Below, in pieces: positions 8,652 to 29,828 of a DNA stretch of 32,976 nucleotides. The stretch lies in NCBI GenBank assembly GCA_945917985.1, contig CAMEIH010000032.1, forward strand, positions 1 to 32,976, given 5' to 3'. This DNA comes from an uncultured Clostridium sp. (lineage in GTDB: Bacteria > Bacillota > Clostridia > Lachnospirales > Lachnospiraceae). The stretch's first letter is position 1. Each line of letters starts with the position of its first letter. Made by a program: the position numbers and the translations under genes. A model generated the notes under the pieces. The model was not told where the DNA came from. It worked only from the letters and a program-made list of their open reading frames with translations, and searched no databases.

Positions 8652-11600
8652 TTGAATGCCCATGAAAGAAATCAAAATGGGCTGACCTTATTTTTACATT
8701 TTTATACGGAAAAGGCATGTGTCAGAGAGAACTTACTGTTTTATCCGGGGGAAAAGCGCAAGATCTATCTCTCAGGAGAAAAGCTGCAGACTGCATTTCC
8801 GCTGGAGGGTATCCTTCTTAAGGAGGGAGAAATCTGGAAACTGAACGACAGGCCGCTTTACAGAGAGAATTTCTGCATTTTATATACGAAGGCCGGGGAA
8901 GAGGTCATGGTAGTGCTTTCGATGCGGGAGGAAAAGCTTTTTCCCTGCGGAAAGGTTTTTTTGCAGGGAAAGAGAGAAATTCAGATAGGCAGAGCTTACC
9001 GAAATGAAGTGTTCTATGATTGTTTTTCCTTTGTGAAGGACAGGCATTTCATCCTTCGAAAGGAGCAGGATAAGGTTTACCTGGAAAATCAGAGGGATAC
9101 CGGGACGGACAAGGATGACAGGGCATACGTCTATCTGAACGGAAGAAGGGCGCCTGCAGAGTGTGTACTTGTCGCCGGAGACAGGATAGAGTATCTCGGG
9201 CTGACGCTGATCTATCTTCCGGGTGTACTTGTCTGCACTTCATTTTACGGGGCACTGCGGACTGCTGAGGAAAGAAAAAGGATGTTTGCGGAAGGACAGG
9301 CAGGCAATCTGTCGTACGAAGATAACGCAGAGAAAACGGAACTGGCCGTGATAGAGGAAGAACAGCTTGTTTCGGAGGAAATGGATCTGGAACTGCCGGA
9401 GAGCGCAAGGACGGATTCTTCACAGCCTCTGCTTCTGACGGTGGGACCTGCGATCACAATGGTCATACCCATGATGCTTATGGCAATGCTTGGAAGTCTC
9501 ATGTCCGGTGGAAGTGGCAGCGGGTATTACAGAATCTCTGCAGTTACCACGGGAGCCTGTGCGTTTCTCTCCGCTTTCTGGGCGGTGACAGGTCATCTGT
9601 ATCGAAAAAAGGTCAGCAGGAAAGAAAATACAGTGCGTGTCAGGTCCTATGAAGAATACTTAAGGGAGACAGAACGGTTCCTTGAGGATAGTTTTTTACA
9701 TAACAGAAGAACGCTGCAGAAAAGATATCCGTCCGCAGGACAGATCCTCACAGGAAAAGACGGAAACGGTCAGATCTTATGGAACAACTTTATGGGGAAA
9801 AAGGAAAAGCTGTTTGTGCGTCTGGGACTCGGCGATATCCCCTTTCAAATCCGTGTAAGGTTTTCGGGAACGGGAAGGCTCAGAAGTCCTGATGAACAGA
9901 CAAAAAAGGCTGTTGCTCTTACAAAAAAATATGAAAAGCTTACACAGGTGCCTGTGGGCGTGGATCTTAAGAAACACAGACTTGTGGGCTTTTCCGGTGA
10001 AATGATCTATCCTGTGTTTTTGCAGGCAATTTTACAGCTGGCAGCCTGTTATGGCGCAGACAGGGTAAAGCTGGTCTTTTTTTTCCATGAGGAGTCAGAA
10101 AGGGAAAATCAGATTGCAGAGTGCATAAAATGGCTTCCCCATGTCTGGAATCAGAGCAGAAAGATACGCTATCTGGCAGGAAATGAGAGAGAAGCCGGAG
10201 AATTGATACCGGAGCTTACAAGGGAATTGCAAAGCAGGGAGGAGGACGGGGATACCCCGTGTGATTATGTCTTTTTGCTGGCGGCTCCCGAGATGATCAG
10301 AGGAGAAGGAATCTACAGATTTTTGATGAGTGAAAAAGAAAGCAGCGGAACCTATCTGTTTTTCCTTTGCAGGGAAAGAGATAAGATACCCGGCGTATGT
10401 GAATGCATGGTTGTGAAGGACAGAGGAAGATCAGAGCTTGCCTGTTATGAGCAGGAGGTTCCCCAAAGGGAAATTGTGGCTTTTGAGGGAGCAGATGCAA
10501 AGGAAACAGAAAAGTATATGCGAAGGCTTTCATCCCGGAACAGTGCGGCGGAAAGCCGGAGGGAAGAATTGACAGATCAGGTCACCTTTCTGGAATTGTA
10601 TGATAGCACAGGGGTGGAGGATTTAAACTGCCTTGGACGATGGAGAGAAAATCAAATCACGGATCGGATCAAGGTTCCCATCGGGAAAGCCCGGGGAGGA
10701 CGGATGATCTTTCTGGATGTTCATGAGAAGTTTCATGGCCCTCATGGTCTCGTTGCGGGAACCACGGGCTCCGGGAAGAGTGAACTTTTACAGACCTATC
10801 TGTTGTCTCTTGCGGTCTCCTTCGGACCGGAGGACATCAATTTCTTTATCATTGATTATAAAGGCGGCGGCATGGGAAACATGCTGCAGAGCCTTCCGCA
10901 CTGTGCCGGGGTCATATCGAATCTGTCAGGCAGCCAGATCAGAAGATCTCTGGCCTCCATTAAAAGTGAGAATTTAAGGAGACAGCGGCTTTTTGGAGAG
11001 GCAGGGGTCAATCATGTGGGAGATTACGCCGGTTTATACAGGGAGGGAAAGGTATCGGAACCGGTGCCCCATCTTCTTCTTGTCATAGATGAGTTTGCGG
11101 AACTGAAGAAAGAAGAACCGGAGTTCATGCAGGAGATCATCAGCGTGGCGCAGGTGGGAAGAAGTCTGGGAGTGCATCTGATCCTGGCCACCCAGAAGCC
11201 TGCAGGTACCGTGGATGATAAGATCTTCAGCAACACGAGATTCAGGCTGTGCCTTCGGGTGGCGGACCGGCAGGACAGTATGGATATGCTCCACCGCCCG
11301 GAGGCAGCATCCTTAACAGGTGCAGGGCAATGCTATCTTCAGGTGGGAAATAATGAACTGTATGAATTGTTTCAGACGGCCTACAGCGGTGCGGATTATG
11401 AGGAGTCGAAAAATGCAGACAAAGGTGTCTGCCTGCTTTCCCGAACAGGAAAAAGATATTACTGCCAAAAGGAGAAGGGAAAAAAAGGCCCCACACAGAT
11501 AGAAGCTGTGATCGATTATATCGGTAAGGTGGCTAAAGAGGCTTCCTTAAAAGCGGCAAAGCCACTGTGGATGCCGGAACTGAAAGAGAAGATTTTTTTG

Positions 11601-13238
11601 TCAGATATTCTGAAGGAAGAAGAAAGCAGGGAGAGAGAAATCAGAATATGTCTTGGTATGTGTGATGATCCGGAAAGACAGGAGCAGTATCCTCTGTACT
11701 ATCATCCCTTGACGGAAGGAAATCTTCTTCTGTGCGGTGCACCGGCGGTAGGAAAAAGTACTTTCCTGCAGACGGTTCTGTATCAGCTTTGCCGGTATCC
11801 GGTAAGGGAGGTTTGCTTTCTTCTTCTTTCCTCTGATTATGCGGGGGTAAGTTGCTTTGAATCCATGCCGGGGTGTCTCGGTAACCTGAAAAAGAAGGAG
11901 GAGGCAGAGTGCTTTTTCTATCATTTAGGACAGCTTTTTCAGAAAAGAAAAGAAGAACTGAAGGGAATGAATTTTCAGCAGTACAGAAGGCATGAAAAAA
12001 AGACAGGTCCTTTTTACTTTCTTATCATTGACAATTACGGAAGCTTCAGGCAGATGACGGAGGACAGATACGGGGAGCTGATAGAGAAAATTGCGGGAGA
12101 AGGACAAAATTATGGCTTTTATATGATAATCACTGCATTAAATGCAGGCGCGGGAGAAATTCCGGGAAAACTTTTTGAAAAAATGAAAGTAACCATGTCG
12201 CTGGAAATGAGCGACAGATTTCAGTATGGAGATATTCTGCGACGGTATCATATGCCTCTCCTTCCCAGGGAAAATGTAAAGGGAAGAGGTCTGTGCAAAG
12301 CGGAGGGAAGAATTCTGGAATTTCAGGTGTCTCTCTGTCTTGACGGAGAGGATGATTACGGACGGGTGAATGGGATCTTAACTCTGGCAAAGGAACGGCT
12401 TTTAGAAGAGAAGGACCGGCTTCCGGATCGTTTTCCCGTGATACCGGAAAAACCTGTCTTTGCAGAGATGTCGGAGAACTATCGAAAGGTAAAGGAAACT
12501 GGAAAGAAGCTTCCTTTGGGATACAGTAAAAGAAGCGGTAATATTGCGGCGGTTCCCTTAGGAAAACCATTTTCTTTCCTGATCTCGGGAGCGGAGCAAA
12601 GCGGAAAAAGAAATCTGCTATGTTGCATGATACGTGCCTTGTGGGAAAGAGAGATAGAGGTGGCGGTATTTGACAGGAAAAATGAGATAAGGGACCGCGT
12701 AAAAAGGATGGCAAAAGACTGTGAGAAGGATAGTTTCATCCGGTTTCTTGACAGCTCCGGGGAATTTGTCAACTGGTATGACAGTATCAAAAGGAGAAAA
12801 CAGGAGAGAGAGGACGGAGAATATTTTCTCTGTATCAGTGATTTGAATGATTTTTCCTCCATGCTCTGCGGGCGGGAAAACGATATGCTTGAGATCAGAC
12901 AGGATCTGGAGCAGAAAAAGGACGAGCAGAGTATGCTTCCTGTGATCGCCATATTGAAGCAGGGTAGAGAAGTGGAGGCGGTGGGAACACCGGTCTATGA
13001 TTTTATGCAGAAGCAGCAGTGCGGAATCCATCTTGGAGGCAATGCGGCAGGGTGTCGCACACTGTCCTTTGATGATCTGTCCTACACCCGTCTGAATCAG
13101 TGGGAAAAACCGGGAACAGGATATTTGAAAAAGAAAAACGGAAGTAAGACGGAAGTGGTATATATTCCGCTCTGTGAAAAGGAGAATGAAGATGATAGTT
13201 GTGGATATTCAGGTTCCGAATTTGAACAGAACCTATGA
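8652..13238 (+). CDS. essC: EssC-type FtsK/SpoIIIE ATPase of type VII secretion (T7SSb)
   Basis: The start is TTG 8652, 11 bases after AAAGGAGG; nearby ATGs are in other frames and stop at once. The product has 1528 residues. The N-terminus (1-200) is FHA-like and cytoplasmic. Two membrane helices lie at about 260-283 and 290-312. ATPase 1 has Walker A GTTGSGKS (703-710) and Walker B with Asp813-Glu814. ATPase 2 has Walker A GAPAVGKS (1029-1036), but the Walker B acid pair is Asp1127-Asn1128. ATPase 3 has a decayed P-loop GAEQSGKR (1313-1320). EssC is the inner-membrane motor that recognises and drives out WXG100/LXG-type substrates, and only the first site usually needs full catalysis. It heads an operon of substrates and chaperones; its last 47 bases overlap the YukD-like gene. 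Confidence 0.95.
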   Translation: MNAHERNQNGLTLFLHFYTEKACVRENLLFYPGEKRKIYLSGEKLQTAFPLEGILLKEGEIWKLNDRPLYRENFCILYTKAGEEVMVVLSMREEKLFPCGKVFLQGKREIQIGRAYRNEVFYDCFSFVKDRHFILRKEQDKVYLENQRDTGTDKDDRAYVYLNGRRAPAECVLVAGDRIEYLGLTLIYLPGVLVCTSFYGALRTAEERKRMFAEGQAGNLSYEDNAEKTELAVIEEEQLVSEEMDLELPESARTDSSQPLLLTVGPAITMVIPMMLMAMLGSLMSGGSGSGYYRISAVTTGACAFLSAFWAVTGHLYRKKVSRKENTVRVRSYEEYLRETERFLEDSFLHNRRTLQKRYPSAGQILTGKDGNGQILWNNFMGKKEKLFVRLGLGDIPFQIRVRFSGTGRLRSPDEQTKKAVALTKKYEKLTQVPVGVDLKKHRLVGFSGEMIYPVFLQAILQLAACYGADRVKLVFFFHEESERENQIAECIKWLPHVWNQSRKIRYLAGNEREAGELIPELTRELQSREEDGDTPCDYVFLLAAPEMIRGEGIYRFLMSEKESSGTYLFFLCRERDKIPGVCECMVVKDRGRSELACYEQEVPQREIVAFEGADAKETEKYMRRLSSRNSAAESRREELTDQVTFLELYDSTGVEDLNCLGRWRENQITDRIKVPIGKARGGRMIFLDVHEKFHGPHGLVAGTTGSGKSELLQTYLLSLAVSFGPEDINFFIIDYKGGGMGNMLQSLPHCAGVISNLSGSQIRRSLASIKSENLRRQRLFGEAGVNHVGDYAGLYREGKVSEPVPHLLLVIDEFAELKKEEPEFMQEIISVAQVGRSLGVHLILATQKPAGTVDDKIFSNTRFRLCLRVADRQDSMDMLHRPEAASLTGAGQCYLQVGNNELYELFQTAYSGADYEESKNADKGVCLLSRTGKRYYCQKEKGKKGPTQIEAVIDYIGKVAKEASLKAAKPLWMPELKEKIFLSDILKEEESREREIRICLGMCDDPERQEQYPLYYHPLTEGNLLLCGAPAVGKSTFLQTVLYQLCRYPVREVCFLLLSSDYAGVSCFESMPGCLGNLKKKEEAECFFYHLGQLFQKRKEELKGMNFQQYRRHEKKTGPFYFLIIDNYGSFRQMTEDRYGELIEKIAGEGQNYGFYMIITALNAGAGEIPGKLFEKMKVTMSLEMSDRFQYGDILRRYHMPLLPRENVKGRGLCKAEGRILEFQVSLCLDGEDDYGRVNGILTLAKERLLEEKDRLPDRFPVIPEKPVFAEMSENYRKVKETGKKLPLGYSKRSGNIAAVPLGKPFSFLISGAEQSGKRNLLCCMIRALWEREIEVAVFDRKNEIRDRVKRMAKDCEKDSFIRFLDSSGEFVNWYDSIKRRKQEREDGEYFLCISDLNDFSSMLCGRENDMLEIRQDLEQKKDEQSMLPVIAILKQGREVEAVGTPVYDFMQKQQCGIHLGGNAAGCRTLSFDDLSYTRLNQWEKPGTGYLKKKNGSKTEVVYIPLCEKENEDDSCGYSGSEFEQNL

Positions 13239-15764: not shown

Positions 15765-17156
15765 ATGCTTACGGACGAAGAGATCAGTATGATACTGAAT
15801 ACTTACATGTATATGGATTATAAGGAAGCGGATGACGGAATGACCATCAATGAGATACTCTCAGATCTTTCCACTCTTGACGATTACAAGGAGGGTGGTA
15901 TTCACTATGGAGAATATTCTGTGCTTTCACAGGCTGCCGAAAACCCGGAGGTGGGAGAGCTGATTATCGGAAATCAAAGCCATCTCATGAACTTTGATGC
16001 AGGCACAAACGCCTGTACCTTCAGCACGAAAGACGGCAGCAGTATTTACGTGGTCTTTCGGGGGACCGGTGACGGAGAATGGCCGGATAACGGAATGGGT
16101 ATGACACAGGCCTCCACCATTCAGCAGGAAAGGGCGCTTGCTTATTTTGAGACGGTGGTGGAGCGGGAACAGATCACAGAGGCGCAAAAACTGGTGATGA
16201 CCGGACATTCCAAGGGAGCTAACAAGGCACAGTATGTGGTTATGTCCACAAAGTATGACAATCTGGTGGACGTCTGTTACAATGTTGACGGACAGGGATT
16301 CTCGGAGATGGCTGTAGACGGATGGAAGGCAGAACATGGAGAGGAGGGCTACGAGGAGAGAAGAAATAAGATCGTGGGAATCTTCGGAGAAAATGATTAT
16401 GTCAATGTGCTGGGGAATTCTATTGTAGCTGAGGATAAGATGCATTTTGTGAAGACCCCGGTAAAGGTAGACAATTTTGCGGGATATCATGATATCAAAT
16501 ATATGTTTGCCGCTCTGGAAAAAGATCCCGTTACGGGAGAAATGGTGACTGTTTTTCATGGCAGGAAGAACAGCTACGTGGATGAGAGGGGAAAGCTTGG
16601 CAGCTATGCTGCACTGCTTTCTGCGGCCATGATGGAGCTTCCGCCGGAGAAGAGAGACGGCTGCGCTGCTTCCCTGATGCAGATGCTGGAACTTGCGGGT
16701 GAGAGAAAGACAGGGATCAACGGGGAGAAACTGACACTTTCCGATATCGGGGATTTCCTGGGAACGGGTGTGCCGCTGATTACCAATACGCTTTTGTTTA
16801 CGGCAGAGGGAAGAGACATGCTGTATCAGGCACTTGGTAAAAAGTCCTTTTCCCGGGATGTCAACGGTAACATCACGGTGATGGTAAATTATTCCGGTAT
16901 TCTTCTGCAAGCGCAGGAGCTTTTGAAAATGTCGGAACGGATCAAAAAATACAGGGACGAAATAGAAAGTGTGCGCAGCAGACTTCCTGAATTTATGAAA
17001 AACAGCTGGCTCCTCTGCCATAAGCTCTGTAAGGAGGCGGAAGCCCTTGACAGAGAAATCCGGGAGCTTTGCAAGTTGTCTGAAATGCTTGAAAATGTTG
17101 CAAAAATCTATATGATAAAGGATAATCAGGCTGCGGATGAAATTCTGATGTTATAG
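15765..17156 (+). CDS. T7SS-linked serine hydrolase (Mbeg1/DUF2974-like lipase) with C-terminal helical targeting tail
   Basis: The start ATG 15765 follows GAAAGAGGGTGACCC. The 463 residues begin with an alpha/beta-hydrolase domain (about 1-290): strand YVVFRGT (95-101) gives the oxyanion region, nucleophile elbow GHSKG (147-151) gives Ser149, and Asp211 (GENDYVNVLG) and His242 (GYHDIKYMF) are candidate triad members. A linker (290-365) precedes a helical hairpin (about 375-463) with a Trp415 turn (KNSWLLCHK), recalling a WXG100/LXG domain. This toxin-first, targeting-last order matches TslA of S. aureus, a type VII phospholipase. There is no signal peptide. It is the last gene of the operon; a bacterial competitor's lipids are the likely target. 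Confidence 0.8.
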   Translation: MLTDEEISMILNTYMYMDYKEADDGMTINEILSDLSTLDDYKEGGIHYGEYSVLSQAAENPEVGELIIGNQSHLMNFDAGTNACTFSTKDGSSIYVVFRGTGDGEWPDNGMGMTQASTIQQERALAYFETVVEREQITEAQKLVMTGHSKGANKAQYVVMSTKYDNLVDVCYNVDGQGFSEMAVDGWKAEHGEEGYEERRNKIVGIFGENDYVNVLGNSIVAEDKMHFVKTPVKVDNFAGYHDIKYMFAALEKDPVTGEMVTVFHGRKNSYVDERGKLGSYAALLSAAMMELPPEKRDGCAASLMQMLELAGERKTGINGEKLTLSDIGDFLGTGVPLITNTLLFTAEGRDMLYQALGKKSFSRDVNGNITVMVNYSGILLQAQELLKMSERIKKYRDEIESVRSRLPEFMKNSWLLCHKLCKEAEALDREIRELCKLSEMLENVAKIYMIKDNQAADEILML

Positions 17157-23774: not shown

Positions 23775-23992
23775 ACAGTTCAGCCATGCATATGCAAACA
23801 ACACAAAATGTGCTTGCACATTTTTGTGTTTGCTCATATGCATGAGCTGAGCGCCGGTTTATGAGCAAAGTTAGCTGCGAAGCAGCGGTAAAGCACCGAA
23901 GGTGCGACTTTGCGAATGGCGCGGCTGAACTGTTATCTGCAAGCAGCAAAAGCACCGAAGGTGCGACTTTGCGAATGGCGCGGCTGAACTGT
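23775..23992. mobile_element. Structured repeat element with terminal inverted repeats (MITE-like)
   Basis: The element is bounded by ACAGTTCAGCC (23775-23785) and its exact inverse GGCTGAACTGT (23982-23992). Inside it has a long near-perfect hairpin (about 23785-23844, arms ATGCATATG.. and ..CATATGCAT with loop near TGTGCTTGCACA). It also has two 46-bp identical direct copies (23890-23935 and 23949-23994), each with a small GCACC-GAA-GGTGC hairpin. No ORF is present. The form suggests a non-autonomous mobile or RNA-structured intergenic repeat. Confidence 0.6.
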
Positions 23993-23994
23993 TA
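23890..23994 (+). repeat. Tandem 59-bp-period repeat (two 46-bp identical cores)
   Basis: The 46-bp core that starts AAAGCACCGAAGGTGCGAC and ends GGCTGAACTGTTA occurs at 23890-23935 and 23949-23994. The spacers CTGCGAAGCAGC and CTGCAAGCAGC are also related. It ends 24 bases before the helicase start codon, so it could form part of its leader. Confidence 0.85.
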
Positions 23995-24018: not shown

Positions 24019-27000
24019 ATGAGTAAGGAAAAAGAGATTTCGGGAACATCCAGGCAGGCAGAAGAAAACTATCTGAAAGAGACACTTAGGGTAGTTCATG
24101 AGAACGTGAAAAGCTATAGCAGCGAGGTCGCAAGAATGCAGGAGGACATCGATGAAATGCTGGAGCATTATCACGACAATGACGCAGAGGTTTTCACAAT
24201 CTTAAACAATACCATCACTTTGCATGACCATATGGAACGTGCTCTGAAACGAAATGAGAAAGCAAAGAACAAACCCTATTTCGGAAGGATCGTGTTCCAT
24301 GATGAAGCCCTTGATAAGGAGGAGTCCGTTTATATCGGCAAAGGTGGCATCGCAAAGGATACCACTCACTATATGGTAACCGACTGGCGTGCACCGGTAG
24401 CCAATGCCTATTATGAGAACGGACTTGGAAAATGCAGCTATCCCGCACCGGACGGCGCAGAGATGAAAATCGATCTGAAACTGAAGCGGACCTATGAAAT
24501 CGAAGAAGGAAAGCTGCTTGATTTTTATGATACAGAGGTTGTGGCAAATGACGATCTTCTGACAAAATATCTGGCAAAAAACAAGCAGGCTGTGCTGGGA
24601 GAAATCATTGCTACCATTCAGAAGGAGCAGAATGAGATCATCAGAAAATCGCCCTATCACAATGTGATTGTACAGGGAGTGGCAGGCTCCGGCAAGACAA
24701 CGGTCGCCATGCATCGCATTTCCTATATTCTGTACAATTATCAGGAACGCTTCAGACCGGATGATTTTTATATTGTGGGGAGCAACAGTATTTTGCTTAA
24801 TTATATCACCGGTGTGCTGCCGGATCTTGATGTGTACGGCATCAGGCAGATGACCATGGAGCAGCTCTTTGTGCGCCTTCTATATGAGGACTGGGATGAA
24901 AAGAAGTACCGGATCTTAAGTGCGGATAAGATGACTGCAAAGGACAGCGTGAAGGGGACACGGAAATGGTTTCATGATCTTGCATCCTATTGTAAAAAGC
25001 TTGAGAGGAATATCATCCCCAGAAAATCAATTTATCTGAATAAGAGACAGTTTGTGGAGGGATTTAAGAACGGAAAATCAGGAGTTTATGATGAAACGGA
25101 GGGAAAGACAGACCCGAATGACCTGATCGAAATTCTGCCGGGAGAGGCGATAGAGCGCTATATCAGACAGAACCCCACAGTTTCTGTTCAGAGTAAGATC
25201 AATATGTTAAATGAAAGGCTTCTGATCAAGCTGAAGGATGAATTCCTGGGAAAAGGCGTCAAATACACGGAAAATGAGAGAAAAGCGATTCTGAAAGCAT
25301 ATAGGGGCTTTTTTGGAAGCAGGACCTTCAAAAAGTCGATTTTCACGATGTACAGGGAATTTCTGACTTCGCAGAATGAAAAAGGATATGAGATGGAGAT
25401 CCGTCAATCGGAATTTGATGTCTATGATCTGGCGGCACTTGCTTATCTCTACAAAAGAATGAAGGAGACGGAGGTGATCAGCGAGGCCCATCACGTTGTG
25501 ATCGATGAGGCTCAGGATTATGGCATGATGGCCTACAGCGTCCTGAAATTCTGTATCAAGGATTGCACCTATACCATTATGGGTGATGTTTCCCAGAACA
25601 TTCATTTCGGCTATGGGTTAAATGACTGGGAGGAATTGAAAGCCCTGTTTTTGAGTGATGGGATGGACGGCTTTGGGGTGCTGAAAAAAAGCTATCGTAA
25701 TACGGTGGAAATCTCACAGTTTGCCACCAATATACTCCATCACGGAACTTTTTCCCTGTATCCGGTGGAGCCTATCATAAGACACGGCAGTCCGGTGGCG
25801 CTCCTTCAGGTTAAGGACAGGAAAGAACTGATCGGAAAGGCTGCCGGGATCTGCAGGAAGTGGCAGGAAAAAGGACTGGATACCATAGCGGTCGTTTTAA
25901 GAGACAGGCAAAGCGCAGAAGCGGTGGCGGAGGAGCTGGGACAGTATATTGAGGTGATAGACAGGGATCTGGAAAAAGCGGTTTTCGGAAGCGGGATCAT
26001 GGTGCTTCCCGTGGAATATACCAAGGGACTCGAATTTGATGCGGTTCTGATTCTTGATCCGGACAGACAGGCTTATCCCATGGATGACGGACATGCCAAG
26101 CTTTTGTATGTGGCAGCTACCAGAGCCCTCCACGAACTGTGTGTGCTGCACACGGGAAATCTGACCGGTCTGATCGCCGATCCGATTCCGGAGAGAGCGG
26201 AGGAAAGCAGATGCCAAGACTTACGACATGAGACAGAAGTAAAAAGGGAGAGAGATAAACAGGAAAAAGAAAAACAGAAAAACCCCATTTCCGGCTTTGA
26301 ACCCACCACAAGGAAAAAAGTAGCCATCGTGAAAAATCAGCTTCCTCAAAAGATGCCGGTGATTCGGGAGGAGAAAAAGACAGCACCGGATAGAGACAAG
26401 GTGATACCCATGGTTCTCGGAAAACAGGAGGTGATCACGGAAGGCAGGAAAGAGGAAAAGACTTTCGCCTTTGGCGATATGCCTGCCACGGAGATACTCA
26501 GACCGGCAGGACATGCCAAAATCGATCTTGCTATCCGCTGGGTGACCAAACAGTCGGACGACCTGTATATCCAGAGCCGCTATGGGGTACTTCGCTTAAG
26601 CCCGGTGGGCAGCGCCATCATTCGTGTCACCTTTGTAAAAGGTCAGGAGATGACGGACGAGACGAATCAGAGGATTGCGGTCCGCCGGACAGACAGAGCG
26701 TGGATGTACCGGGAAACGGCAGGAAAGGTGGAACTTCTGACAGATGAGCTCTGCATGCAGGTAGATAAGCAGACAGGCCAGGTCCGCTATCTGACAAGAG
26801 ACAAAAAGCTGCTGCTTTCAGAGAGACAGAAGGAGAGTCGGCAGATTGAAAGCGGGATAAGCCAAAAAAGTAAAGCATGGCTTTTTATGGAATGGCAAAA
26901 AGGAGAGAATGTGTACGCCATGGGAGAAAAAGACAAAGCTGGAATCAATCTGCGAGGCAGCGCAAGGTATATTTCCCATGACAGCAAAATGCAGGAACTT

Positions 27001-27192
27001 CCTTTCCTTCTCTCGGATAAAGGATACGGAATCCTGTTAGCTTCGGATCATCCGGCATTTTGCTGTGATATTCCTGCTTACGGCACTTACCTGTGTATGG
27101 AGGAAAGCAGGATCGATTATTATTTTATTGCGGGAAAACGCCAGAACACGATTTTAAACGGATACGCTTATCTTTGCGGAAAACTGCAATAA
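24019..27192 (+). CDS. helD: HelD-type UvrD-like helicase fused to a GH31 N-terminal-like beta-sandwich
   Basis: ATG 24019 follows AAAGGAAAGGAAACGCAA. The product has 1057 residues, against roughly 700-770 for usual HelD. The N-terminal coiled coil (about 10-80) is HelD-like. Walker A is GVAGSGKT (220-227), Walker B IDEAQD (495-500), then GDVSQN (about 522), YTKGLEFDAV (667-676) and VAATRA (698-703). HelD recycles stalled RNA polymerase. A charged linker (735-830) leads to about 225 residues with GH31 hallmarks of the domain before the barrel: VYAMGEKDKAGINLRG (965 on), LPFLLSDKGYGILLAS, and IDYYFIAGK (1032-1040) followed by ILNGYAYLCGK. The protein ends there, where a glycosidase barrel would begin. 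The fused domain's role is unknown. Confidence 0.88.
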   Translation: MSKEKEISGTSRQAEENYLKETLRVVHENVKSYSSEVARMQEDIDEMLEHYHDNDAEVFTILNNTITLHDHMERALKRNEKAKNKPYFGRIVFHDEALDKEESVYIGKGGIAKDTTHYMVTDWRAPVANAYYENGLGKCSYPAPDGAEMKIDLKLKRTYEIEEGKLLDFYDTEVVANDDLLTKYLAKNKQAVLGEIIATIQKEQNEIIRKSPYHNVIVQGVAGSGKTTVAMHRISYILYNYQERFRPDDFYIVGSNSILLNYITGVLPDLDVYGIRQMTMEQLFVRLLYEDWDEKKYRILSADKMTAKDSVKGTRKWFHDLASYCKKLERNIIPRKSIYLNKRQFVEGFKNGKSGVYDETEGKTDPNDLIEILPGEAIERYIRQNPTVSVQSKINMLNERLLIKLKDEFLGKGVKYTENERKAILKAYRGFFGSRTFKKSIFTMYREFLTSQNEKGYEMEIRQSEFDVYDLAALAYLYKRMKETEVISEAHHVVIDEAQDYGMMAYSVLKFCIKDCTYTIMGDVSQNIHFGYGLNDWEELKALFLSDGMDGFGVLKKSYRNTVEISQFATNILHHGTFSLYPVEPIIRHGSPVALLQVKDRKELIGKAAGICRKWQEKGLDTIAVVLRDRQSAEAVAEELGQYIEVIDRDLEKAVFGSGIMVLPVEYTKGLEFDAVLILDPDRQAYPMDDGHAKLLYVAATRALHELCVLHTGNLTGLIADPIPERAEESRCQDLRHETEVKRERDKQEKEKQKNPISGFEPTTRKKVAIVKNQLPQKMPVIREEKKTAPDRDKVIPMVLGKQEVITEGRKEEKTFAFGDMPATEILRPAGHAKIDLAIRWVTKQSDDLYIQSRYGVLRLSPVGSAIIRVTFVKGQEMTDETNQRIAVRRTDRAWMYRETAGKVELLTDELCMQVDKQTGQVRYLTRDKKLLLSERQKESRQIESGISQKSKAWLFMEWQKGENVYAMGEKDKAGINLRGSARYISHDSKMQELPFLLSDKGYGILLASDHPAFCCDIPAYGTYLCMEESRIDYYFIAGKRQNTILNGYAYLCGKLQ

Positions 27193-27226: not shown

Positions 27227-28069
27227 ATGAGTGCGGAAAAAGTGATGCTTGAAATTAAGACAGTGGAAGATACCGAGGTGAAGGCCAAAGCCTTCTTGAG
27301 CTGCAAGACAGTGGGCAAGCTTGTGCTGGAAAATTCTGTCACAGCAATCGGTGACTGGGCCTTTGCCCATATGCAGAATCTCCATACGCTGGTATTGCCG
27401 GGACATGAGATCGCTTTTGGGAAGAAAGTTTTTCTCGACTGTGAAAAGCTGAAAGAGATCCAGATAAGAGATGATGAGAGCGGTAATCCGGGAACCCCCT
27501 TTTTTATGGCATCGGCAGTGCGTGTCCTGAAAAAGGAGGAACTGTGCAGACCGGAAATGGCAGGAAGAAGCGCTTCCCACAGGGAATGGATGAAAGAATA
27601 TGACAATGCACTTCTCCGTTTTATACAGGAAGAGGATGCGGAAGGCTTTGAACCCGTGTTTATCGGCTGGTTTCATGTGGAGGATACGGATGAACAGATT
27701 CCTAGATACTTGAAGAAAAGAAGAGAAGACAAGGTGGAACTGATCTTTCAGAGACTCCTTTATCCGGAGTACTTAAGTGGGGAAGACAGAACTTTATTGG
27801 AAAAGTACCTTAGAGAACATATGCCCTATGGTAGCAGGGCAGAAGAGCATACCGTTGTTTTTGATATGCTCTGCGATTCTTCCACAGAGTATGGAACAGA
27901 TATTGCCTATATGAAGATTCTGGAAAAGGCGGGCTGTCTGACAAAAGAGACGATTTCTCTGCTCATGGAACAAATGGAGGAGGCTGCTGCGGAAATAACA
28001 GCCTTCCTCCTGAAAAAACAGGCAGAACTGACAAAAGAAAATGATTACTTTTCTGAATTTGAATTGTAA
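27227..28069 (+). CDS. BspA-type leucine-rich repeat protein, cytoplasmic
   Basis: ATG 27227 follows AAGGAGCGGAAT, 34 bases after the helicase gene, so it is likely cotranscribed. The 280 residues have no signal peptide. Two to three LRR_5 repeats occupy about 20-90 (AKAFLSCKTVGKLVLENSVT, AIGDWAFAHMQNLHTLVLP, VFLDCEKLKEIQI). The rest (100-280) is an acidic, helical domain without recognised motifs, rich in Glu/Lys and ending KENDYFSEFEL. LRR domains usually bind proteins; the partner might be the helicase. Short LRR proteins of this type are often surface-exposed, but nothing here indicates export. Confidence 0.75.
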   Translation: MSAEKVMLEIKTVEDTEVKAKAFLSCKTVGKLVLENSVTAIGDWAFAHMQNLHTLVLPGHEIAFGKKVFLDCEKLKEIQIRDDESGNPGTPFFMASAVRVLKKEELCRPEMAGRSASHREWMKEYDNALLRFIQEEDAEGFEPVFIGWFHVEDTDEQIPRYLKKRREDKVELIFQRLLYPEYLSGEDRTLLEKYLREHMPYGSRAEEHTVVFDMLCDSSTEYGTDIAYMKILEKAGCLTKETISLLMEQMEEAAAEITAFLLKKQAELTKENDYFSEFEL

Positions 28070-28082
28070 TGCTTTTATTTTT

Positions 28083-29000
28083 TTATTTCAAAAATCCTTC
28101 AATGATCTTCTGCTCGGCTTCCTCCTCGGTCAGACCCAGAGTGCAGAGCTTGATGATCTGTTCTCCGGCAATCTTGCCGATGGCAGCCTCATGGATCAGG
28201 GAAGCATCCAGATTTTCTGCGTGAAGCTCAGGGGCAGCGTTAACGACACCGTTTCCCACTAAGATGGCATCACATTCGGAATGTCCCGTGCAGCGACAGC
28301 TTCCTATGATCACGGAGTGATAGTCCTGATGGGAATTGCCTTTGGCTACAGACCGGGAAACGAGATCTACACCGCTGTCCTTACCATAGAGAGATACCTT
28401 GAAATCGGACTTCGCGTATTCTTCGCCATCTGTCAGCAAACGCTCTCTGATGACCAGCTTTGCTCCGGCAGCAAGAGCAGCAGTGGTGGTACGATTGGTA
28501 GAGGTAACACCGCTGATCTGCATGGTGTCCATTTCCATATAGGAATTTTCACCCATGGCAATTTCCGTGACAGGATCGATATTCCGGGCACCGGTTCCTT
28601 TTCCCGTGCCGATATGTTTCTCTTTATAGATGACTTTGGCATTTTTGCCGATCATAAAGCGGTGGATGCCGTTGTGACGGGCTTCCTCCTCTCCGTCAGA
28701 GTGGACACCGCAGCCTGCCACGATGATCACGTCAGCCCCGTCTTCCACAATAAAATCATTATAGACAAGATCACTGACACCGCTGTGTGTGACACAGGCG
28801 GGAATATAGACCGTTTCCTGCTGTGCTTTTGCACTGATGCGGATCACGATTCCGGGTTTGTCATGTTTGGGCTCTATCTTGATATACTCGGAAGATTGTC
28901 TCCCTGCGCAACCGCTGTCCTCCCGGATATTATAGGCTCCCTTGAAGCCTTCTTTGAAATCAGAGATAGAAGATAGTAATTCTTTGGTAACGGAATTCAT
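28083..29000 (-). CDS. sufB: SufB/SufD-family Fe-S scaffold protein (minimal SmsB-like)
   Basis: ATG 29000 directly follows the sufC stop codon (TAA-ATG). The product has 305 residues, shorter than enteric SufB (about 495), as in the two-gene SmsC-SmsB systems of anaerobes. The beta-helix core is visible: VIIVAGCGVHSDGEE, VIYKEKHIGTG, TTTAALAAGAKLVIRERLL, IIGSCRCTGHSECDAI, then the C-terminal LHAENLDASLIHEAAIGKI and LTEEEAEQKIIEGFL. SufB binds the nascent Fe-S cluster with SufC; Cys in GSCRC and Asp/His residues near DASLIHEA are likely ligands. Confidence 0.92.
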   Translation of the reverse strand: MNSVTKELLSSISDFKEGFKGAYNIREDSGCAGRQSSEYIKIEPKHDKPGIVIRISAKAQQETVYIPACVTHSGVSDLVYNDFIVEDGADVIIVAGCGVHSDGEEEARHNGIHRFMIGKNAKVIYKEKHIGTGKGTGARNIDPVTEIAMGENSYMEMDTMQISGVTSTNRTTTAALAAGAKLVIRERLLTDGEEYAKSDFKVSLYGKDSGVDLVSRSVAKGNSHQDYHSVIIGSCRCTGHSECDAILVGNGVVNAAPELHAENLDASLIHEAAIGKIAGEQIIKLCTLGLTEEEAEQKIIEGFLK

Positions 29001-29735
29001 TTAGCAGCCCTCCTTTTTGATGTTGTTCATGGGACAGGCACATTTTTTGTCCTTACACAGAAGGGAGGGGAGTACTTCACTTCCCGGGCCGAAGGTCTTA
29101 ACCTTGCCCTCTGCGATGACAGCGATATGATCTGCGATTTCCATAATTCTCTCCTGATGGGAAATGATGACAATGGTGCGTCCGCCCTGTTTTTTCAAAT
29201 CTTCAAAGGCATTAATCAGATTGGAAAAACTCCACAGATCGATTCCGGCTTCCGGCTCGTCAAAGACAAGAAGCTTTGCGTTTTTGCGGTTTAAGACAGT
29301 GGCGATCTCAATTCGTTTGCTCTCACCGCCGGAAAGACTTCCGTCCACATTTCTGTCAATATACTCCTGGGCGCACAACCCAACAGTGCTCAGCATGGCG
29401 CAAAGCTTGTCCTCCGAAAGGGTATCTTCCGCAGAAAGCTCCAAAAGATCACGGACAGTGAGCCCCTTAAAGCGGACAGGCTGCTGAAAAGCGTAGGCAA
29501 TTCCCTTCCTCGCACGTTCGGTGATGGAAAGGGCGGTGATGTCTTCCTTATTATATAGAATCTGACCGGCGCTTGGGGTATAAAGGCCGGCAATCAGTTT
29601 GGCAAGAGAAGTCTTTCCGCCGCCGTTGGGACCGGTGATGACGGTAAGCTTTCCTTCGGGAATGGAAAGATCGATTCCCTTTACGATCTCCTCGTTCTCA
29701 GGAGTTTTCCAATGAATATTTTTCAGTTCAAGCAT
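29001..29735 (-). CDS. sufC: SufC-family ABC ATPase of Fe-S assembly
   Basis: The start ATG 29735 has AAAGGAG eight bases before it, better than ATG 29756. The 244-residue product has Walker A GPNGGGKT (35-42), Q-loop AFQQPVRFKG (82-91), signature LSGGE (134-138), Walker B LLVFDEPEAGID (155-166) and ISHQERI. SufC hydrolyses ATP in the SufBC complex that builds Fe-S clusters. The C-terminal tail carries four cysteines (LLCKDKKCACP...EGC), unusual for SufC, perhaps a metal or cluster site. It is cotranscribed with sufB and diverges from the corrinoid genes. Confidence 0.93.
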   Translation of the reverse strand: MLELKNIHWKTPENEEIVKGIDLSIPEGKLTVITGPNGGGKTSLAKLIAGLYTPSAGQILYNKEDITALSITERARKGIAYAFQQPVRFKGLTVRDLLELSAEDTLSEDKLCAMLSTVGLCAQEYIDRNVDGSLSGGESKRIEIATVLNRKNAKLLVFDEPEAGIDLWSFSNLINAFEDLKKQGGRTIVIISHQERIMEIADHIAVIAEGKVKTFGPGSEVLPSLLCKDKKCACPMNNIKKEGC

Positions 29736-29828
29736 ATGAACTCCTTTCTTATGCATAAAATCATATTTACTATTTTACTTATATTTCTCAATTTTACAAG
29801 TGCTTTGAAGGATTGGCAGGGATATTGT

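Follow-up and report, generated by a model that had tools for sequence, protein, structure and literature searches.

HelD inserts one arm into the secondary channel of RNA polymerase and another into the main channel, and in Bacillus subtilis it is aided by the polymerase delta subunit (PMC7749165). An absolutely conserved DWR motif is present in the HelD N-terminal region, and in class III proteins the DWRAP signature is interrupted by one inserted extra residue (PMC8655204). The longest HelD mentioned in the parts of that survey cited here comprises 872 amino acids, and its main text never uses the terms C-terminal, extension, fusion or glycos-. The SF1 motor PcrA, a relative of HelD, has a small domain at its C-terminus, tethered by a disordered linker, and docks on the polymerase through this domain according to the sections of the report drawn on here (PMC8318588).

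Here, we describe a gene at positions 24019..27192 (forward strand) of a window of 32,976 nucleotides, the whole of contig CAMEIH010000032.1 from an uncultured Clostridium sp. of the Lachnospiraceae. An earlier note on this DNA had read the product as a HelD-type helicase fused to the pre-barrel domain of GH31 glycosidases, and knew of no described case. Among the matches listed from titles and abstract openings of open-licence papers, no published description of such a fusion was found either, and a further literature search returned only enzyme papers and reviews, none of them on the fusion.

Domain architecture of the fused protein

The gene forms a single unbroken frame of 1057 codons, with its ATG at 24019 and its stop codon at 27190-27192. 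By homology, the protein is a HelD motor fused, via a linker, to a homologue of the complete N-terminal domain of GH31 enzymes.

The motor occupies residues ~1-724 (24019..26190), its end being placed near the C-terminal ends of unfused relatives. It matches the NCBIfam model NF041464 with an E-value of 2e-102 and 343.5 bits, under the curated equivalog cut-off of 419; the best stretch aligns model positions 46-303 with residues 32-290. Judged by its motifs, the motor is a HelD-family protein that falls below the threshold for the B. subtilis-type equivalog. Four UvrD-type Pfam families also exceed their cut-offs in the motor. An identity as a defence helicase was rejected, as it is represented by generic UvrD-type matches only, at no more than 47.6 bits against 343.5 for HelD.

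The SF1 motor motifs are present both in the window protein and in the fused rows aligned with it, and the claim that the helicase motifs are complete is borne out at each position. Walker A (GVAGSGKT, residues 220-227, 24676..24699) and Walker B (IDEAQD, residues 495-500, 25501..25518) occur in all 58 fused rows, and the TKGLEFD ... ATRA motifs lie within residues 667-703 (26017..26127), covered by a match to UvrD_C_2 (PF13538) at residues 662-709. The HelD signature DWRAP (residues 122-126, 24382..24396), matched by the pattern DWR[AS]P throughout the 58 fused rows, is uninterrupted in the window protein and thus without the class III insertion. Walker A and Walker B are separated by 245-299 residues in fused rows and by 240-298 in unfused ones, enough to accommodate an insert that could form a secondary-channel or clamp arm.

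The motor is followed by a variable linker (residues ~725-829, 26191..26505). Measured from about residue 720 in 56 relatives, one of which (L046) contains unread bases (X) in its linker, linkers are 87-214 amino acids long with a median of 131. Their net charge has a median of +7 and ranges from -4 to +18, in agreement with the charged linker described earlier. Mimicry of the delta tail by the linker was considered and rejected, since a median of +7 is not strongly acidic. Read by eye, and with no statistics attached, a FGDxPxxxxLRPxGH-like motif precedes the domain in most of the 56 fused proteins; in the window protein it reads FGDMPATEILRPAGH (residues 818-832, 26470..26514). The unfused rows that were printed end no more than about 15 residues from the LTGLIAD helix, and because these relatives stop there the junction is, by comparison, at the natural C-terminal end of the motor.

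The C-terminal domain spans residues 830-1057 (26506..27189). The earlier note had proposed a profile search of this segment, which gave a match of residues 858-1008 to Gal_mutarotas_2 (PF13802) with an E-value of 1.3e-6 and 29.3 bits, above the Pfam cut-off of 27. Residues 842-1055 match the NCBIfam alpha-xylosidase model PRK10658 (9.6e-10, 37.5 bits, against a cut-off of 606 for the whole enzyme), and among solved structures GH31 alpha-xylosidases come closest in sequence; the match to one of them, BoGH31A, improves from 6.7e-9 to 1.2e-15 when a profile built from 60 fused domains is used. Aligned by hhalign with 14 Lachnospiraceae GH31 enzymes, the domain gives a probability of 100 and an E-value of 2e-41 over 220 columns, with ~30 enzyme residues absent after residue ~948. 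At the level of sequence, the comparisons with PF13802, PRK10658 and hhalign confirm the identity proposed for the domain. Searched singly, 47 of the 60 fused domains match PF13802 at E-values up to 1 and 13 do not. Structure prediction from two-row alignments returned mean pLDDT values of 33.7 for the domain and 29.0 for the full protein, so the assignment of its fold rests on homology, by which the domain probably folds as a GH31 beta-sandwich.

The boundary of the domain is equally clean at its C-terminal end. Four GH31 Pfam parts were found in each of the three enzymes scanned out of the 14; in one of these, L194, the match of the domain ends at residue 273 and the catalytic barrel begins at 274. 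The window protein therefore stops where a barrel would start, as had been claimed. It has no match to the TIM barrel family PF01055 at E-values up to 1, and frames of at least 30 amino acids contain no barrel remnant across the 61 fetched loci. A relic of a full-length HelD-GH31 enzyme was rejected for this reason.

Residues of the domain were compared between 60 fused domains and 15 GH31 rows, 7 of 22 GH31 rows having been omitted at 60 bits or below. Positions of the general fold are common to both sets, with R869, E935, Y984, S999, G1002, Y1003, G1022 and D1033 at 95-100% in the fused domains. Among positions invariant in GH31, E963 (90%), G969 (83%), Y984 (95%), P995 and S999 (98%) are largely kept, at 82-98% together; G967, Q970, G974, R979, N989 and I992 have fallen to 0-32%, including Q970 at 3%, G974 at 10%, N989 at 7% and I992 at 0%. 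The segment containing the lost residues presumably faces the barrel in GH31 enzymes. Other residues are newly fixed: R941 (98%), K961 (92%), A982 (97%), S986 (92%) and C1016 (97%) stand at 0-20% in GH31, I1018 and P1019 at 80-82% in fused domains are absent from GH31, and Y1021 is at 97% against 33%. Beyond residue ~1039, and over the second half of the GH31 motif, conservation in the fused set is uneven.

Distribution and origin of the fusion

Within the genus, 29 of 37 genomes, the window's own included, contain a domain match above 200 bits, and all 29 hold the domain and HelD in one frame (the window and 28 further loci). The earlier note had suggested looking for the same architecture across Lachnospiraceae genomes. 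Among 397 sampled genomes of this family, 52 contain a match to the domain at 1e-8; all places above 80 bits were fetched and their frames inspected. One-frame fusions are present in 30 of the 52, namely the window's genome, G001 and 28 genomes outside the genus, copies in G084 and G042 are cut off by contig ends, and in G185 the two parts lie in different frames. The other 19 hold ordinary GH31 genes or fragments, as judged from frame lengths. With both parts in frame in 28 other genomes of the genus and 28 further ones in the family, a single-genome assembly error, which the earlier note had named as a possible undoing of its reading, is ruled out.

Of the 61 gene copies encountered overall, 57 are one-frame fusions, the exceptions being those of G185, G042 and G084, the last in two contig pieces. 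The G185 copy (L138, 5779-8887) encodes motor and domain in two overlapping frames, broken within the linker by either an error or a mutation. Many of the sampled genomes are drafts.

HelD proteins lacking the C-terminal domain are common in the Lachnospiraceae, and HelD matches also occur outside this family. At 1e-30, HelD is matched in 134 of 344 genomes of the order, of which 100 lie outside the family; in the class 26 of 291 genomes have a match at 1e-60, with a single long frame, of 983 amino acids, which ends at the motor. Among the matches listed, no C-terminal fusion is found outside the family in either order or class, and no frame outside the family in the order exceeds 897 amino acids. 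Long HelD frames outside the fused group end at the motor, their surplus length lying upstream of it (G748, 983 amino acids; G068, 1032; G634, 897; G665, 858). HelD-matching frames of 1067 and 1080 amino acids in the family genomes G692 and G697 are known by length alone. The frame of G068 (L216, 1257-4352, reverse strand) joins a ketopantoate reductase to a HelD-like motor, and is possibly another HelD fusion, on the N-terminal side. Viral contigs scanned for further rows yielded no relative, and the scan of genome contigs returned one locus (L033), on the same contig as G016:C46 (L034).

In a tree of HelD motors with 85 rows, built by a quick method with no bootstrap, 58 fused rows and one split row form one group (SH-aLRT 99) with no unfused row inside it. 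One fused row (L184) is cut by a contig end, L181, L183 and L185 contributed no motor row, and the 26 unfused rows were chosen, mostly as the closest, from a set scoring at most two candidates per genome. A second tree, of the domains, separates 22 fused from 22 GH31 N-terminal domains by one branch (100/99), with 38 of the 60 fused domains left out. Many inner branches are weak in both trees. No loss of the domain is seen in the rows studied. Because fused motors and fused domains each group together and the junction lies at the natural motor end, the simplest reading is one ancestral fusion within the Lachnospiraceae, kept since; a sugar-enzyme domain would apparently have been recruited once, and retained, by a transcription motor.

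Selection on the domain points the same way as its retention. Domain dN/dS is 0.08-0.32 in 15 of 16 close pairs. Saturation of dS affects several of the pairs, and two sequences each enter twice; the outlier (L149/L151) has 1.17 at a dS of 0.01. Where defined, values are 0.03-0.15 for the motor and 0.10-0.80 for the linker. By this measure the domain is under purifying selection in 15 of the 16 pairs.

No conserved neighbour family accompanies the gene across 69 loci, 58 of which were counted as fused, and none thus hints at a partner of the domain. The largest neighbour cluster is unannotated and covers 31 loci at scattered positions from -6.2 to +7.1 kb, and the next covers 8; these clusters do not define an operon. 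Immediately downstream in the window lies a BspA-type leucine-rich-repeat protein (27227-28069), followed on the reverse strand by a SufBD-like protein paired with a SufC-like ATPase (28083-29756), both under the NCBIfam Suf cut-offs. Further upstream, at 8652-13235 and 15765-17153, are a 1528-amino-acid FtsK/SpoIIIE protein, several ORFs of ~95-106 amino acids and an Mbeg1-like protein, a putative type VII secretion locus. A direct repeat, compared over 47 bases and with its copies 59 bases apart, precedes the gene at 23889-23994. Its 45-base core has six copies in the genome at up to 3 mismatches against none for the control, and it is therefore a dispersed repeat. A promoter-like pair overlaps the second copy of the repeat; promoter-like sites were dismissed as a signal, with 6 observed against 5.0 in shuffles.

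Possible roles of the C-terminal domain

At the level of sequence, the architecture, the grouping in one clade, the retention and the selective constraint are established. The fused gene is the sole HelD at an E-value of 1e-10 in 28 of the 29 fused genomes of the genus, and the added domain must therefore be compatible with the basic role of HelD.

We propose, giving it an even chance, that the domain is a non-catalytic docking module which holds HelD on the polymerase or on a partner in the transcription complex. The starting protein would have been a class I-like HelD, a motor of the kind that clears stalled RNA polymerase of nucleic acids. A single gain in a Lachnospiraceae ancestor would then have placed a GH31 N-terminal domain on a long flexible tether. 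Without a catalytic barrel, this domain has shed several enzyme-specific residues and fixed others, and it now most likely anchors the motor to RNA polymerase or to a transcription-complex partner, much as the Tudor domain recruits PcrA. We favour docking because the layout matches that of PcrA and because a GH31 N-terminal domain, that of LlGH31_u1, makes inter-subunit contacts (PMC9061262). A conserved domain under purifying selection, with newly fixed residues and placed behind a variable linker, is in keeping with this view. That the domain docks, and that polymerase is its target, are what we infer; its binding partner might just as well be the motor of the same protein, a nucleic acid or a small molecule. 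The earlier note had offered protein binding and sugar sensing as guesses; the former fits better, and the latter is disfavoured by the loss of enzyme-invariant residues.

Binding within the protein is the next candidate, though a distinctly less probable one. The domain would fold onto the motor, or mediate self-association of HelD, and so tune its ATPase activity or polymerase release. An N-terminal domain contributes to hexamer contacts in the GH31 enzyme LlGH31_u1, as described in the cited sections (PMC9061262), and the presence of motor and domain in a single frame in nearly all gene copies is also compatible with such a regulator. Against it stand the length and variability of the linker, more readily expected of a loose tether than of a fixed interface.

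A metabolite gate, coupling carbon status to polymerase recycling through binding of a sugar or sugar phosphate to the domain, is unlikely. The domain descends from a sugar enzyme and keeps a small, tightly conserved residue set, and in LlGH31_u1 Tyr99 of the neighbouring protomer's N-terminal domain is reported to hydrogen-bond the substrate (PMC9061262). GH31 N-terminal domains can thus touch sugar. The substrate of GH31 enzymes is, however, held by the catalytic barrel, which is absent from the fused protein, and Q970, G974, N989 and I992 are nearly gone. A related reading, a switch in which binding of a sugar metabolite or a sugar-enzyme partner decides when HelD engages or leaves RNA polymerase, giving carbon status direct control over polymerase recycling in these gut bacteria, is a long shot. 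If ligand binding of either kind held, metabolism would be tied to polymerase recycling.

Binding of nucleic acid, with the basic linker and the domain holding nascent RNA or displaced DNA, has little probability. The positive median charge of the linkers would suit such a role, but this charge is inconstant, turning negative in part of its range, and to our knowledge GH31 N-terminal domains are not nucleic-acid binders.

Finally, a non-functional relic or an assembly error is extremely improbable: the broken frame in G185 and the many domain-less HelDs of the family could be read that way, but 57 one-frame fusions from separate genomes, a single tree group with no unfused row within it, and a dN/dS far under 1 for all but one of the 16 pairs speak strongly against it.

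Comparison with known systems

The window protein shares its SF1 motor motifs and DWRAP signature with class I HelD proteins, represented by B. subtilis HelD and NF041464. In the account used here, B. subtilis HelD ends with domain D2 at residue 774 (PMC7749165), whereas the window protein continues into a linker and a domain of beta type.

The delta subunit was found in none of the 37 genomes of the genus by a search that was positive in B. subtilis and Lactococcus lactis; since 8 of the 37 lack both fusion and delta, the absence of delta is not particular to fusion-bearing genomes. The delta tail is reported to carry a net charge of -47 (PMC7749165), in contrast to the linker of the fused proteins, which is net positive in the median.

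GH31 alpha-glycosidases (~790-800 amino acids in Lachnospiraceae; BoGH31A, 5jou) have the N-terminal domain in common with the fused protein over the 220 aligned columns. The latter lacks the catalytic barrel and the C-terminal domains, and its own domain is without ~30 residues and several enzyme-invariant residues.

The closest likeness in plan is to PcrA/UvrD, in which a flexible linker connects an SF1 motor to a small domain at the C-terminus (PMC8318588). Their C-terminal domain is a Tudor domain, unrelated to the GH31-type domain, and the fused C-terminal domains have no Pfam match to the Tudor family, matching the GH31 domain instead; the likeness is thus one of layout and not of domain family. 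The PcrA/UvrD domain binds RNA polymerase, and binding by the GH31-type domain is putative. If docking is correct, the arrangement of motor, tether and small C-terminal domain would have been reinvented independently of PcrA/UvrD, and it would provide a handle on HelD recruitment in bacteria of the genus tested, where delta was not found.
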